This document shows, in pieces, positions 31,573-35,355 of a stretch of DNA of 36,457 nucleotides (its first letter is position 1; every line of letters starts with the position of its first letter). This stretch comes from Clostridiales bacterium (GTDB lineage: Bacteria; Bacillota; Clostridia; Lachnospirales; Lachnospiraceae): the NCBI GenBank assembly GCA_012512855.1, contig JAAZDK010000225.1:1-36457 (forward strand), given 5' to 3'. The translations under genes and the position numbers were made by a program. Under the pieces are notes generated by a model. It saw only the letters and a list, made by a program, of their open reading frames with translations. It ran no database searches and had not been told where the DNA came from.

Positions 31573-32919
31573 ATGCCTGCATTAAATGTATCAGCCACCA
31601 GTATTAATATCTTTATCGTGTTTTTGGAGGGAGTTTTGTCCTTCTTTTCACCGTGTGTAATACCCCTTATACCTGTTTATGTCAGCTATCTGGCGGGTAA
31701 TGCCAAAATAAGCACTGAGGACGGCAGGGTTAAATACATCCGCAAAAGGGTGTTCCTTCATACCCTTCTGTTTGTACTGGGTATTTCTAGTGCTTTCTTT
31801 ATTCTGGGCATGTCGGTGAATGCATTAAGAATTTTTTTCAACTCATATCAGATGGCTTTTGTCCGTGCAGGTGGATTGCTTATAATATTTCTGGGCCTGG
31901 TTCAGACCGGAATTATTAAACTAAGCTTCCTGCAAAGAGAGCATCGTTTTAATTTTAATATCGGAGAACGCAGGATGAGCCCTCTCCTGGCCTATATCAT
32001 GGGCTTTACCTTCAGCTTTGGCTGGACACCCTGCATTGGCCCGGCGCTTTCATCCGTCCTGGTATTGGCTGCCGGCAGCGACAGCAGACTGGCGGGGAAT
32101 CTCTTGATATTGGTTTACACCGCAGGCTTTGTCATTCCCTTTATGCTGCTGGGCCTGTTCACAACACAGGTATTGAACTTCCTGAACAGGCATAAAAAGG
32201 CCTTAAGATATACCGTAAAGGCTGGAGGAATTTTATTGATTATAATTGGCTTTTTAACTCTAACCGGCTGGATGAATTCAATATCCAGATATCTTAACTC
32301 ATTTACCGCCTCCTTAGGCGAGCAAACAGGCGCTCCCTCCCCGACCGAAGAGGCCGATAGCGGCAACAGGGACGAGCAAGCTACTGACAATGGAAACAAA
32401 GATGCTGTAAATGATAAGAATGATACCACTGATGGAAACGCATCATCAGAGAAGGAAAAATATCCCGCCTTCGATTTTACCCTTGTAGATCAAAACGGAA
32501 CTACTCATACCTTATCGGATTATAAAGGCAAGGTAGTATTTTTAAATTTCTGGGCTACCTGGTGTCCTCCATGCAAAAAGGAGCTTCCGGATATCGAAGA
32601 GCTGTACAGGGAATACGGTGAAAACAGCTCTGATGTAATCTTTCTTAGCATCACCAACCCTGTCAGCGACGAATATCCCAATAATGCTGACATAACAAAG
32701 GATAAGATAATTGACTTTATTAAGGAAAACGATATCAGCTTCCCTGTCCTCTTTGACGAAACCGGGGAAGTTTTAAGCAAATACTATATTTCAGCCTTTC
32801 CCACCACCTTTTTGATTGATACGGATGGAAATATCTATGGCTATGCCCCGGGCATGCTGAGCAAGGAAACTATGATTAGCGCCATTGAGCAGACAAAAAA
32901 ATCCACAGGTCAGGATTAG
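31573..32919 (+). CDS. CcdA-type cytochrome c biogenesis membrane protein fused to a TlpA/ResA-like thioredoxin domain
   Basis: 448 aa; FLEGVLSFFSPCVIPLIPVYVSYLAG and GWTPCIGPALSSVL (CcdA cysteines); acidic linker; then FDFTLVDQNGTTHTLSDYKGKVVFLNFWATWCPPCKKELPDIEELY. Confidence 0.93.
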   Translation: MPALNVSATSINIFIVFLEGVLSFFSPCVIPLIPVYVSYLAGNAKISTEDGRVKYIRKRVFLHTLLFVLGISSAFFILGMSVNALRIFFNSYQMAFVRAGGLLIIFLGLVQTGIIKLSFLQREHRFNFNIGERRMSPLLAYIMGFTFSFGWTPCIGPALSSVLVLAAGSDSRLAGNLLILVYTAGFVIPFMLLGLFTTQVLNFLNRHKKALRYTVKAGGILLIIIGFLTLTGWMNSISRYLNSFTASLGEQTGAPSPTEEADSGNRDEQATDNGNKDAVNDKNDTTDGNASSEKEKYPAFDFTLVDQNGTTHTLSDYKGKVVFLNFWATWCPPCKKELPDIEELYREYGENSSDVIFLSITNPVSDEYPNNADITKDKIIDFIKENDISFPVLFDETGEVLSKYYISAFPTTFLIDTDGNIYGYAPGMLSKETMISAIEQTKKSTGQD

Positions 32920-32957: not shown

Positions 32958-32986
32958 TTGACAGAACAGTTGTCATATGCTACAAT
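32958..32986 (+). promoter_or_regulatory. Strong sigma70/sigmaA-type promoter
   Basis: TTGACA (32958-32963), 17-nt spacer, TACAAT (32981-32986). Confidence 0.75.
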
Positions 32987-33028
32987 AGTTTTCAGTTTAA
33001 AGATTGATTATAAGAAAGGATGGTTTTG

Positions 33029-33067
33029 GTGTCGGTATTAACTGTTAGCGAGGTTTGTGGACAATAA
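33029..33067 (+). CDS. Candidate leader peptide MSVLTVSEVCGQ (GTG start; or 15 codons from ATG 33020)
   Basis: Short ORF directly downstream of the promoter with AAGGA upstream of the GTG; stop TAA 33065-33067. Confidence 0.4.
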   Translation: MSVLTVSEVCGQ

Positions 33068-33180
33068 GGATATTCTGTTTGTCTTGCTTCTTATCAGACG
33101 CAAGGCTCTCGAAGTATGCCTTTTTCAGTCCTGTAATCCACCCATGCAGTTAATACTCGAAGCTGTCCTTTTACTCGTGG

Positions 33181-33210
33181 CAGCGCTGACTTTACGCGCT
33201 GTTTTTGTTT
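33181..33210 (+). terminator. Intrinsic terminator (possible attenuator) inside the leader of the MutS2-like gene
   Basis: CAGCGC tgactttac GCGCTG TTTTTGTTT. Confidence 0.6.
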
Positions 33211-33311
33211 GCATGAGCCCGGTATGATATTATTGCGACCAAATTGGACAATCGGCACAGTCATGCCCTGCTCTATTTTGGCTTTTGAAATAATGGCTGC
33301 TATACGGACAG

Positions 33312-33359
33312 TTGCCCACAGGAGTATTAACCATTGTATGGTGGATCTTCTGTGGGCAA
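33312..33359 (+). promoter_or_regulatory. Long hairpin just upstream of the MutS2-like gene
   Basis: TTGCCCACAG / CTGTGGGCAA perfect 10-bp stem enclosing ACCAT tgt ATGGT. Confidence 0.5.
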
Positions 33360-33402
33360 TTTGCATTTATGTATAGATCATATTTTGAAAGGAGCTATCT
33401 GA

Positions 33403-35355
33403 ATGATTGAAAAATCAATGATTACACTGGAATTTGATAAAATAAAGAAAATTCTTTGCAATAATGCTGTTTCTGAGGAGGCGGGACTTAAGCTAGCGCA
33501 TCTTACGCCCAGCCTGAGTGAAGGCGAGGTTAAGGCCAGAATAAACGAAACCTCACAGGCAAGGAAACTCCTTGACAGTTTGGGAACCCCTCCTCTGGCC
33601 TCAATGAAGGATATTGGCATGCTTCTGGATCTGGCCCAGAAGGGAGCCATGCTTGTGCCTGAGCAGCTTGGCCAAATTGATATGTTTATCAATGCCTGCA
33701 AAAGGATGAAAAGCTATTTAAAGCGGGCAGAGTCACTTAGCATAAATCTTGCCGCCTATGGGGCATCAATCGATGAGCTAAGCATCCTGGCAGATGAAAT
33801 AAAGCAGGCAATCCGCAATAACCAGGTAGATGACAATGCCTCCGCAGAGCTTAGGGATATAAGGCGGCAGATGGAGCGAATTAATTCAGAAATAAAGTCC
33901 AAGCTGGATTCCATACTGCGAAGCAAAAAGGAATGTTTTACTGAGGGCTATGTGTCCATCAGAAACGGCCATTATGTACTCCCGGTTAAAAGGGAATACA
34001 AGCATATGGTAAGCGGCTCCGTGCTGGATATCTCCAGCAGCGGCTCAACCTATTTCATAGAGCCTGCAGCCGTTGCACGTCTTAAGGATGAGCTGGCCAT
34101 TTTGGAAATAGCCGAGAGCAATGAGGTCCGCAGGATTCTTTATGAGCTTAGCGCTCTTGTGGCAGATAACGCCCAACCCATCCGAACGAATATGGAAGCC
34201 ATGGTGGCGCTTGATTTTGCATTTGCAAAGGCAAAGCTAAGCGTAGATATGAAGGCGGTCCCGGCAAATATTAATACCGACAGAAGAATCGTTATAAAAA
34301 ACGGCCGGCATCCGCTGCTTAAGCAGGAGGAATGTGTGCCCCTCAATATTCAAATCGGTGACGGTATAAGAGGAGTCATAATCACCGGCCCGAATACGGG
34401 AGGGAAAACGGTAGCCCTAAAGACCGTTGGCCTGTTGCAGCTTATGGCCCAGTCCGGCCTTCATATTCCATGCGAAAGTGCCGACCTGTGTATGAACAAT
34501 GCCGTCTTGTGTGATATTGGCGACGGCCAGAGCATCACTGAGAACTTATCCACATTCTCCTCTCATATTACGAATATTATCAACATTCTCAACCATAGCA
34601 ACAACGAAAGCCTGGTGCTGCTGGATGAGTTGGGCTCCGGTACCGATCCAGCCGAGGGAATGGGCATAGCTATAGCAATACTTGAAGAACTTCGAAAGAA
34701 GGAGTGCCTCTTTATTGTGACCACCCACTACCCGGAGGTTAAGGAGTATGCCGCCAAAACCGAAGGCCTTATCAATGCCAGAATGGCCTTTGACCGAGAA
34801 AGCCTAAAGCCCCTTTACAGGCTTGAGATTGGTGAAGCAGGTCAAAGCTGCGCCCTCTATATTGCCAAGCGCCTTGGCATGCCCGCCCACATACTTAAGA
34901 AGGCTTATGAGGAGGCATACTTTAGCAGTCATAAGGAAGCGTCCGTTCCGGATAATGATTTCCTTAAAGATTTGCCGGTAAACGACAAAAGCCGGAATTC
35001 AAATCCCTCTTCACCGGCCAGGATACAAAGGCAAATACAGCCCAGACAGATAAACACAAGAAGCGAGCGCTTTAATATAGGTGACTGCGTTATGGTATAC
35101 CCTGAGAAAAAGCTTGGCATTGTATTTAGCAAGGCAAATGAAAAGGGTGAGGTGGGGGTACAGATACAAAAGAAAAAGACATATATAAATCACAAGAGGC
35201 TGAAGCTTAAGGTGCCTGCTGACCAGCTGTATCCTGAAAACTATGATTTCTCCATAATTTTTGACAGTGTTGCCAACCGCAAGGCAAGGAAGAAAATGAA
35301 CCAGGGCCACCAGCCCGGCCTTCAGATTGTATATGAGGATGATATTAAGGAATAA
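33403..35355 (+). CDS. MutS2-like ATPase (MutS family) lacking a recognisable Smr domain
   Basis: 650 aa; MutS2-like N-terminus; Walker A ITGPNTGGKTVALKTVGLL; LVLLDELGSGTDPAEGMGIAIAILEEL; VTTHYPEVKEYA; KOW-like FNIGDCVMVYPEKKLGIVFSKANEKGEVGVQIQKKKTYINHKRLKL. RBS AAAGGAGC. Confidence 0.88.
   Translation: MIEKSMITLEFDKIKKILCNNAVSEEAGLKLAHLTPSLSEGEVKARINETSQARKLLDSLGTPPLASMKDIGMLLDLAQKGAMLVPEQLGQIDMFINACKRMKSYLKRAESLSINLAAYGASIDELSILADEIKQAIRNNQVDDNASAELRDIRRQMERINSEIKSKLDSILRSKKECFTEGYVSIRNGHYVLPVKREYKHMVSGSVLDISSSGSTYFIEPAAVARLKDELAILEIAESNEVRRILYELSALVADNAQPIRTNMEAMVALDFAFAKAKLSVDMKAVPANINTDRRIVIKNGRHPLLKQEECVPLNIQIGDGIRGVIITGPNTGGKTVALKTVGLLQLMAQSGLHIPCESADLCMNNAVLCDIGDGQSITENLSTFSSHITNIINILNHSNNESLVLLDELGSGTDPAEGMGIAIAILEELRKKECLFIVTTHYPEVKEYAAKTEGLINARMAFDRESLKPLYRLEIGEAGQSCALYIAKRLGMPAHILKKAYEEAYFSSHKEASVPDNDFLKDLPVNDKSRNSNPSSPARIQRQIQPRQINTRSERFNIGDCVMVYPEKKLGIVFSKANEKGEVGVQIQKKKTYINHKRLKLKVPADQLYPENYDFSIIFDSVANRKARKKMNQGHQPGLQIVYEDDIKE

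Follow-up and report, generated by a model that had tools for sequence, protein, structure and literature searches.

The leader of a MutS2-type gene that lacks the Smr domain, located in a 36,457-nucleotide stretch of Clostridiales DNA (contig JAAZDK010000225.1; hereafter the window), is in our judgement likely to be a translation-coupled transcription attenuator; termination, ribosome stalling, the inducer, and a function in resistance are inferred. This reading is supported by the conservation of the leader's parts, the co-variation of both of its pairings, a one-to-one link with the gene, and the behaviour of a folding model, without RNA or ribosome data. As judged from sequence, the leader is real and functional-looking, and its conservation is stronger evidence than the statistics of the window's own sequence. 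The features referred to below are the following.

32958-32986, + strand: promoter TTGACA-N17-TACAAT with an extended -10 TG; 11 of 12 consensus positions match
33014-33045, + strand: putative anti-antiterminator, made up of the SD stretch 33014-33028 and mini-ORF codons 2-6 (33034-33045); complementary to the antiterminator block
33029-33067, + strand: mini-ORF (uORF) VSVLTVSEVCGQ, GTG...TAA, 12 codons
33066-33125, + strand: T1, predicted hairpin 33066-33122 (-18 kcal/mol) with U-tract 33121-33125
33136-33172, + strand: putative antiterminator block ATCCACCCATGCAGTTAATACTCGAAGCTGTCCTTTT; its partner is the mini-ORF region or T3
33181-33210, + strand: T2, CAGCGC..GCGCTG hairpin followed by the tract TTTTTGTTT
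33312-33368, + strand: T3, terminator-like hairpin TTGCCCACAG...CTGTGGGCAA (33312-33359) with a U-rich tail
33389-33394, + strand: SD AAGGAG of the controlled gene, about 30 nt beyond T3 and outside the hairpin
33403-35355, + strand: Smr-less MutS2 paralogue, 650 aa, with core/clamp, ABC ATPase, KOW-like domain, and conserved tail

The leader and the gene it precedes

The promoter, the mini-ORF behind it, and T2 are present as the sequence-only reading had described them, and the mini-ORF has an SD, AAAGG, at 33015. For T1 that reading was right about the U-tract; its 5-bp AAGGC/GCCTT stem gives way to the longer predicted hairpin. It overlooked T3, directly before the gene, and the pairing of the SD stretch 33014-33028 with 33158-33172. 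Relatives carry promoter-like boxes at the same place in the leader, a GGGTAC...GTATACC-T5 hairpin at the place of T1, and AAGGCATAA..TTATGCCTTTTT at that of T2. The further GTATTAAC that had been pointed out at 33324-33331 is indeed there, and it lies in the inner arm of T3 (33322-33346), which is complementary to the antiterminator block. Pairing between the T3 arm that holds this third GTATTAAC and positions 33136-33158 of the block is predicted at -25.6 kcal/mol, whereas shuffled sequences average -13.2. Nearly all congeners retain the (T)GCCCACAG...CTGTGGGC of T3, and the U-tract of T3 in the window, TTTGCATTT, is weak.

The leader as a whole folds better than 100 of 100 shuffled sequences (z -4.4). 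At least two terminator-like hairpins are found on the sense strand of 67 of 74 leaders, compared to 12 of 74 on the antisense strand. No Rfam family matched the window or the eight relatives searched at gathering score. A repeat or mobile element was considered as the source of the leader and ruled out, the leader DNA being single-copy in the genome. The upstream neighbour (31573-32919) encodes a protein of 448 aa in which a DsbD/CcdA-type membrane domain is fused to a TlpA/ResA-like thioredoxin domain.

Profile matches place the gene product in the MutS_V/MutS2 family, and it is neither of the HflX type nor an ABC-F protein. It scores 600 bits with the MutS2 model TIGR01069 (cutoff 400), below the cutoff of the MutS1 model, and 243.8 bits with the model for the lysine 5,6-aminomutase reactivase KamC (NF052383), under the required 300. 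The nearest solved structures are those of Bacillus subtilis MutS2 on collided disomes (7qv3 and 8qpp), and a fold search with the predicted model (mean pLDDT 81) confirms the MutS2 match. Walker A and B (GPNTGGKT, DELGSGTDP) are intact in 103 of 104 members, whereas the Smr signature HG[KR]GTG occurs in none of the 104, compared to all 12 canonical paralogues from the window's and related genomes; Pfam likewise finds no Smr domain in the window's gene product. In place of the Smr end stand a KOW-like region and a strongly conserved tail, LYPEDYDFSIIFDSVxNRKxRHxM (35200-35350 in the window; alignment A3). Support for the KOW-like region comes from weak sequence similarity to its B. subtilis counterpart and from strands at residues 562-604 of the model, with no separate domain call.

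In the tree, a branch with 100/100 support separates the Smr-less proteins from the others. A search of 349 Bacillota genomes recovered 23 Smr-less loci besides that of the window, as judged from match lengths. Some congeners carry the Smr-less gene and others do not; it is an accessory paralogue beside canonical mutS2. Among loci L028-L053, the Smr-less genes of congeneric genomes come from distant branches of the tree and have leader types to match, and some genomes have none. The gene is patchily distributed and was possibly moved horizontally with its leader attached.

Conservation of the mini-ORF and co-variation of the pairings

A BLAST search of the leader against congeners returned a block of about 46 nt, mostly 84-91% identical, with little similarity on its flanks. 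This block comprises the SD and the mini-ORF and lies some 330-540 nt upstream of the orthologous gene. A pattern search of 34 congeneric genomes found the SD-plus-start DNA in 14, as a single copy that always precedes an Smr-less mutS2. A group-1 pattern had no match at up to three mismatches in 294 other genomes of the order because leaders diverge fast, and the search was therefore moved to loci anchored on the gene.

These loci gave a family of short peptides, written here without the stop that ends them. Close relatives encode MSVL(T/S/I/F)V(K/N/S)E(V/A)C(A/G)(N/Q/K/L), more distant Clostridia MSVLSVxVxxN, and other Lachnospiraceae ML(S/I/N)V(I/V/F)VMEKIAK. Across the Bacillota the variants include MSVLSVNEVCAN, MLSVIVMEKIAK, MSVSVLN, and VSVVGI, and they are found upstream of most Smr-less MutS2 genes. 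Endings in Leu-Asn or Ala-Asn are frequent (e.g., L188-L190 and L168). The RLR motif of macrolide leaders is absent from the mini-ORFs. Start codons (ATG, GTG, or TTG) and stop codons (TAA, TAG, or TGA) vary among loci but the frame is retained, which argues for translation of the mini-ORF.

An ORF scorer matched 70 of 98 upstream regions, none of the 98 reverse strands, and none of 294 shuffled sequences. In a held-out set, consisting of 23 Smr-less loci from a phylum-wide search that lay outside the rule's seeds, it matched 18, as opposed to none of six canonical mutS2 genes; the held-out controls gave 0 of 23 reverse strands and 12 of 460 shuffles (2.6%). Three of the five held-out loci that the scorer missed have M-S type ORFs when inspected by eye. 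Six further loci from plasmid and phage collections (L165-L170) place uORF-led Smr-less MutS2 genes in Bacilli and Peptostreptococcales too. They include MLGVVLN in Cytobacillus, MSVNVLN on the Paenibacillus plasmid pHD01, MSVIVLL in Acetoanaerobium, and VSVVGI and VSVAGI in Enterococcus and Listeria "phage" records, which are unverified and may hold host DNA; in two cases perfect complements of 11-12 bp lie downstream of the mini-ORF.

The mini-ORF, its pairing with the antiterminator block, and the pairing of the block with the terminator are, on the sequence evidence, conserved and co-varying across species. In the window, GTATTAACTG (33035-33044) is exactly complementary to CAGTTAATAC (33147-33156), as had been claimed. 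A 10-nt exact complement also arose in 41 of 5000 dinucleotide shuffles, and is by itself only mildly unusual. The predicted helix between mini-ORF region and block is longer, with 27 bp formed by 33014-33028 with 33158-33172 and by 33034-33045 with 33146-33157. The block thus has two mutually exclusive partners of similar sequence, GTATTAACTG in the mini-ORF and GAGTATTAACC..TTGTATGGTGGAT in T3. A second pairing proposed earlier, GTTAGCG with CGCTGAC, occurs in no predicted fold of the window, and its letters in the mini-ORF are not kept in relatives.

When partners were swapped between leaders, the start of the mini-ORF and its own block paired better (mean -14.8 kcal/mol) than swapped ones did (-10.3) across 21 clusters (permutation p<=5e-5), and the difference held within group 1 (p=3e-4) and group 2 (p=5e-5). 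The same applies to the SD plus mini-ORF with the extended block (p<=5e-5) and to the block with T3 (own -16.7, swapped -13.2, p<=5e-5; group 1 1e-4, group 2 1.5e-3), for which a reversed-block control gave p=0.21 overall and 0.04 within group 1. Pairing of the SD alone with the block reached p=0.011 overall and was not significant within groups; it is therefore claimed only for the window and its close relatives, as a predicted helix. The swap test was run on sequence clusters because related sequences can inflate shuffle tests; single-linkage clustering merged nearly all sequences and was replaced. Scanning the entire downstream region with the mini-ORF in a duplex test gave too noisy a signal (mean z -0.93), whereas confining the test to the block gave a clear result. 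The antiterminator seeds were picked after inspecting loci, a slight circularity, which is lessened by testing within groups and by the mini-ORF loci that were held out.

Compensating changes are seen as CTGTAA:TTACAG in most of group 1, TGTTA:TAACA in L072, L073, L045, and L041, and ATTGTTG:CAACAAT in L048; the window pairs CCACC..GTTAATACTC with GAGTATTAAC..GGTGG, and relatives pair CTACC..AAATACTC with GAGTATT..GGTAG. In alignment A1 both sides have changed in 8 of 16 pairs, and the covariation score is.237 versus.156 for shuffled alignments (0/500), dropping to.04-.11 when the register is slid. Members L100, L129, L095, L067, and L069 fit less well. Loss of conservation in the mini-ORF and the pairings had been named in advance as a refutation of translation-dependent attenuation before the MutS2-like gene; that comparison has now been made, and the idea survived it and is supported by the co-variation.

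A proposed switch and its alternatives

The following sequence of events is proposed. RNA polymerase would initiate at the promoter at 32958 and a ribosome would load on the mini-ORF. In normal reading the ribosome would reach the stop codon and leave the start region exposed to pair with the emerging block; with the block held by the mini-ORF region, T3 would form (T1 and T2 earlier), transcription would stop, and little gene product would be made. A ribosome lingering at the first codons would instead cover the SD and codons 2-6 with its footprint and leave the block free to engage the 5' arm and the loop of T3 while its last arm has yet to be transcribed. T3 would thus be pre-empted and the gene transcribed.

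We modelled these states by folding transcripts that end just before the basal 3' arm of T3, with the ribosome footprint forced to be unpaired. Without a ribosome, 0.72 of the window's block is predicted to be paired with the mini-ORF region and 0.00 with T3; with a ribosome at codon 4 the values are 0.00 and 0.88, and with one at the stop codon 0.66 and 0.00. The means over 68 leaders (mini-ORF/T3) are 0.59/0.06 without a ribosome, 0.05/0.43 with one at codon 4, and 0.38/0.16 with one at the stop, and at least 30% of the block is on T3 in 49 of the 68 leaders with a ribosome at codon 4, in 3 when free, and in 17 with a ribosome at the stop. At full-length equilibrium T3 wins in most leaders even with a ribosome present (P(T3) 0.91 and 0.89 in the window; mean 0.74-0.76 in the 68 leaders); the switch must therefore be kinetic and would depend on early pairing by the block. 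For T2 of the window, folding predicts a hairpin in all ribosome states, and how polymerase would pass T1 and T2 remains unexplained by the attenuator model.

The product would keep the ribosome-splitting core and the KOW-like domain, without the Smr domain that senses collisions. In B. subtilis, stalled ribosomes are split by MutS2, whose Smr domain promotes binding to collisions; mutants are hypersensitive to chloramphenicol, tetracycline, and erythromycin, and for survival in erythromycin the ATPase counts more than Smr (PMC10897456). Given this drug sensitivity and the precedent of HflXr discussed below, we infer that a drug-induced, collision-independent splitter is the most likely role: the product would split or rescue ribosomes stalled by ribosome-targeting drugs, resistance being inferred by analogy. 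The attenuator is probably induced by such drugs, as in HflXr; the inducer too is inferred from analogy, in the absence of induction data.

Upstream of L191 the mini-ORF is reduced to three codons, GTG AGT GTC TAA (MSV). So short a peptide would hardly allow for peptide-specific arrest and suggests stalling near the start. Arrest by phenicols or oxazolidinones favours Ser, Ala, or Thr at the penultimate position. As a speculation, a Ser close to the N-terminus and followed by Val (M-S-V, L-S-V) would suit such arrest.

An alternative explanation, which we consider unlikely without setting it aside, retains the same uORF attenuator but assigns it a signal other than a drug: shortage of an amino acid or tRNA, slow initiation, or feedback from low splitting activity might stall ribosomes on the mini-ORF. 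The anti-antiterminator overlaps the start region, where any early delay would do, and the mini-ORF peptides are unlike between clades. However, the run of a single amino acid that is typical of amino-acid attenuators is absent, and a patchy accessory paralogue beside canonical mutS2 fits a resistance gene better than housekeeping feedback.

It is very unlikely that the leader acts by translation attenuation, with its final hairpin masking the ribosome site of the mutS2-like gene rather than ending transcription. The terminator stem of C. difficile cplR does also sequester a Shine-Dalgarno sequence (PMC10201436); here, however, about 30 nt separate the end of T3 (33359) from the SD of the gene (33389), a U-rich tract comes after T3, and in the leader set the last U-tract lies a median of 53 nt upstream of the gene. 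Slightly less credence still can be given to a structured leader, either a riboswitch or a protein-bound switch, whose mini-ORF would be merely incidental. The strong fold (z -4.4) would be expected of it, and the DNA from SD to start codon is conserved beyond coding need; but pairing with the block accounts for these conserved non-coding letters, start, stop, and frame are retained despite codon changes in distant clades, and no Rfam match was obtained for the window and eight relatives. The notion that the mini-ORF is what remains of a deleted ABC-F gene, which rested only on a resemblance of MSVLTV to ABC-F N-termini suggested by the earlier reader, can be dismissed, as in every close relative the 12-codon ORF stands alone and has a stop of its own, the distant versions (MLSVIVMEKIAK, MSVSVLN, VSV) do not share that resemblance, and the mini-ORF DNA is present once per genome, before the Smr-less mutS2, in 14 congeners.

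Returning to the drug-induced attenuator, the Smr-less gene is accompanied by its uORF leader across the Bacillota, and occurs beside canonical MutS2. We put forward only tentatively, and with somewhat more doubt than confidence, that Smr-less MutS2 proteins are widespread, unrecognised, inducible splitters for tolerance of ribosome-targeting drugs in this phylum, which lost Smr and target single drug-stalled ribosomes. Being active on single ribosomes, they would for that reason be kept silent by the uORF attenuator until stalling occurs. If true, this would add a class of ribosome-splitting ATPases to inducible intrinsic resistance, offer a reason why a MutS2 could dispense with its collision sensor, and predict drug-inducible expression in many gut and soil Firmicutes.

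Comparison with known systems

The regulatory principle is of a known kind. What is new, as far as we could see, is the gene family under control and the arrangement of tandem terminators in which the SD takes part in the pairing; a literature search, from which most subscription literature was excluded, found no paper on an attenuator or uORF before a MutS2 gene. The closest parallels are in resistance genes. HflXr (rli80-lmo0762 of Listeria monocytogenes), a homologue of a ribosome splitter that confers resistance to lincomycin and erythromycin, is under an attenuator with a 14-aa uORF (PMC6310831). The two leaders share a short uORF overlapping the anti-antiterminator, an antiterminator, an intrinsic terminator, and a ribosome-splitter homologue as the product. 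They differ in that the product is HflX-like there and a MutS2 ATPase here, in that the HflXr uORF contains an RLR motif, and in that the present leader usually has several terminator-like hairpins and a block that pairs also with the SD of the uORF.

The uORF attenuators of ARE ABC-F genes (lmo0919/vgaL, vmlR, cplR, and lsaA; PMC10201436) are similar in their very short uORFs and low demand on context. The uORFs of vmlR (MIN) and lsaA (MAGN) have Asn as their last residue (PMC10201436), and many of the present mini-ORFs are also Asn-terminal (LN, AN, or IN before the stop). However, the present uORFs mostly have 6-13 codons and start with M-S or M-L, and the product is unrelated to ABC-F. The Erm and msrD leaders, which act by macrolide-dependent translation or transcription attenuation, resemble the proposed switch in that ribosome stalling on a leader peptide reshapes the downstream RNA, but no known macrolide-arrest peptide motif is present here.

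As for the product, B. subtilis MutS2, or RqcU (PMC10897456; 7qv3, 8qpp), has the same arrangement of core, clamp, and ATPase and a KOW-like region, as judged from sequence and predicted fold, whereas the present protein is without Smr, about 100-150 residues shorter, and in a separate clade (100/100). The uORF leader is the Smr-less genes' own and is absent from the canonical mutS2 genes tested.
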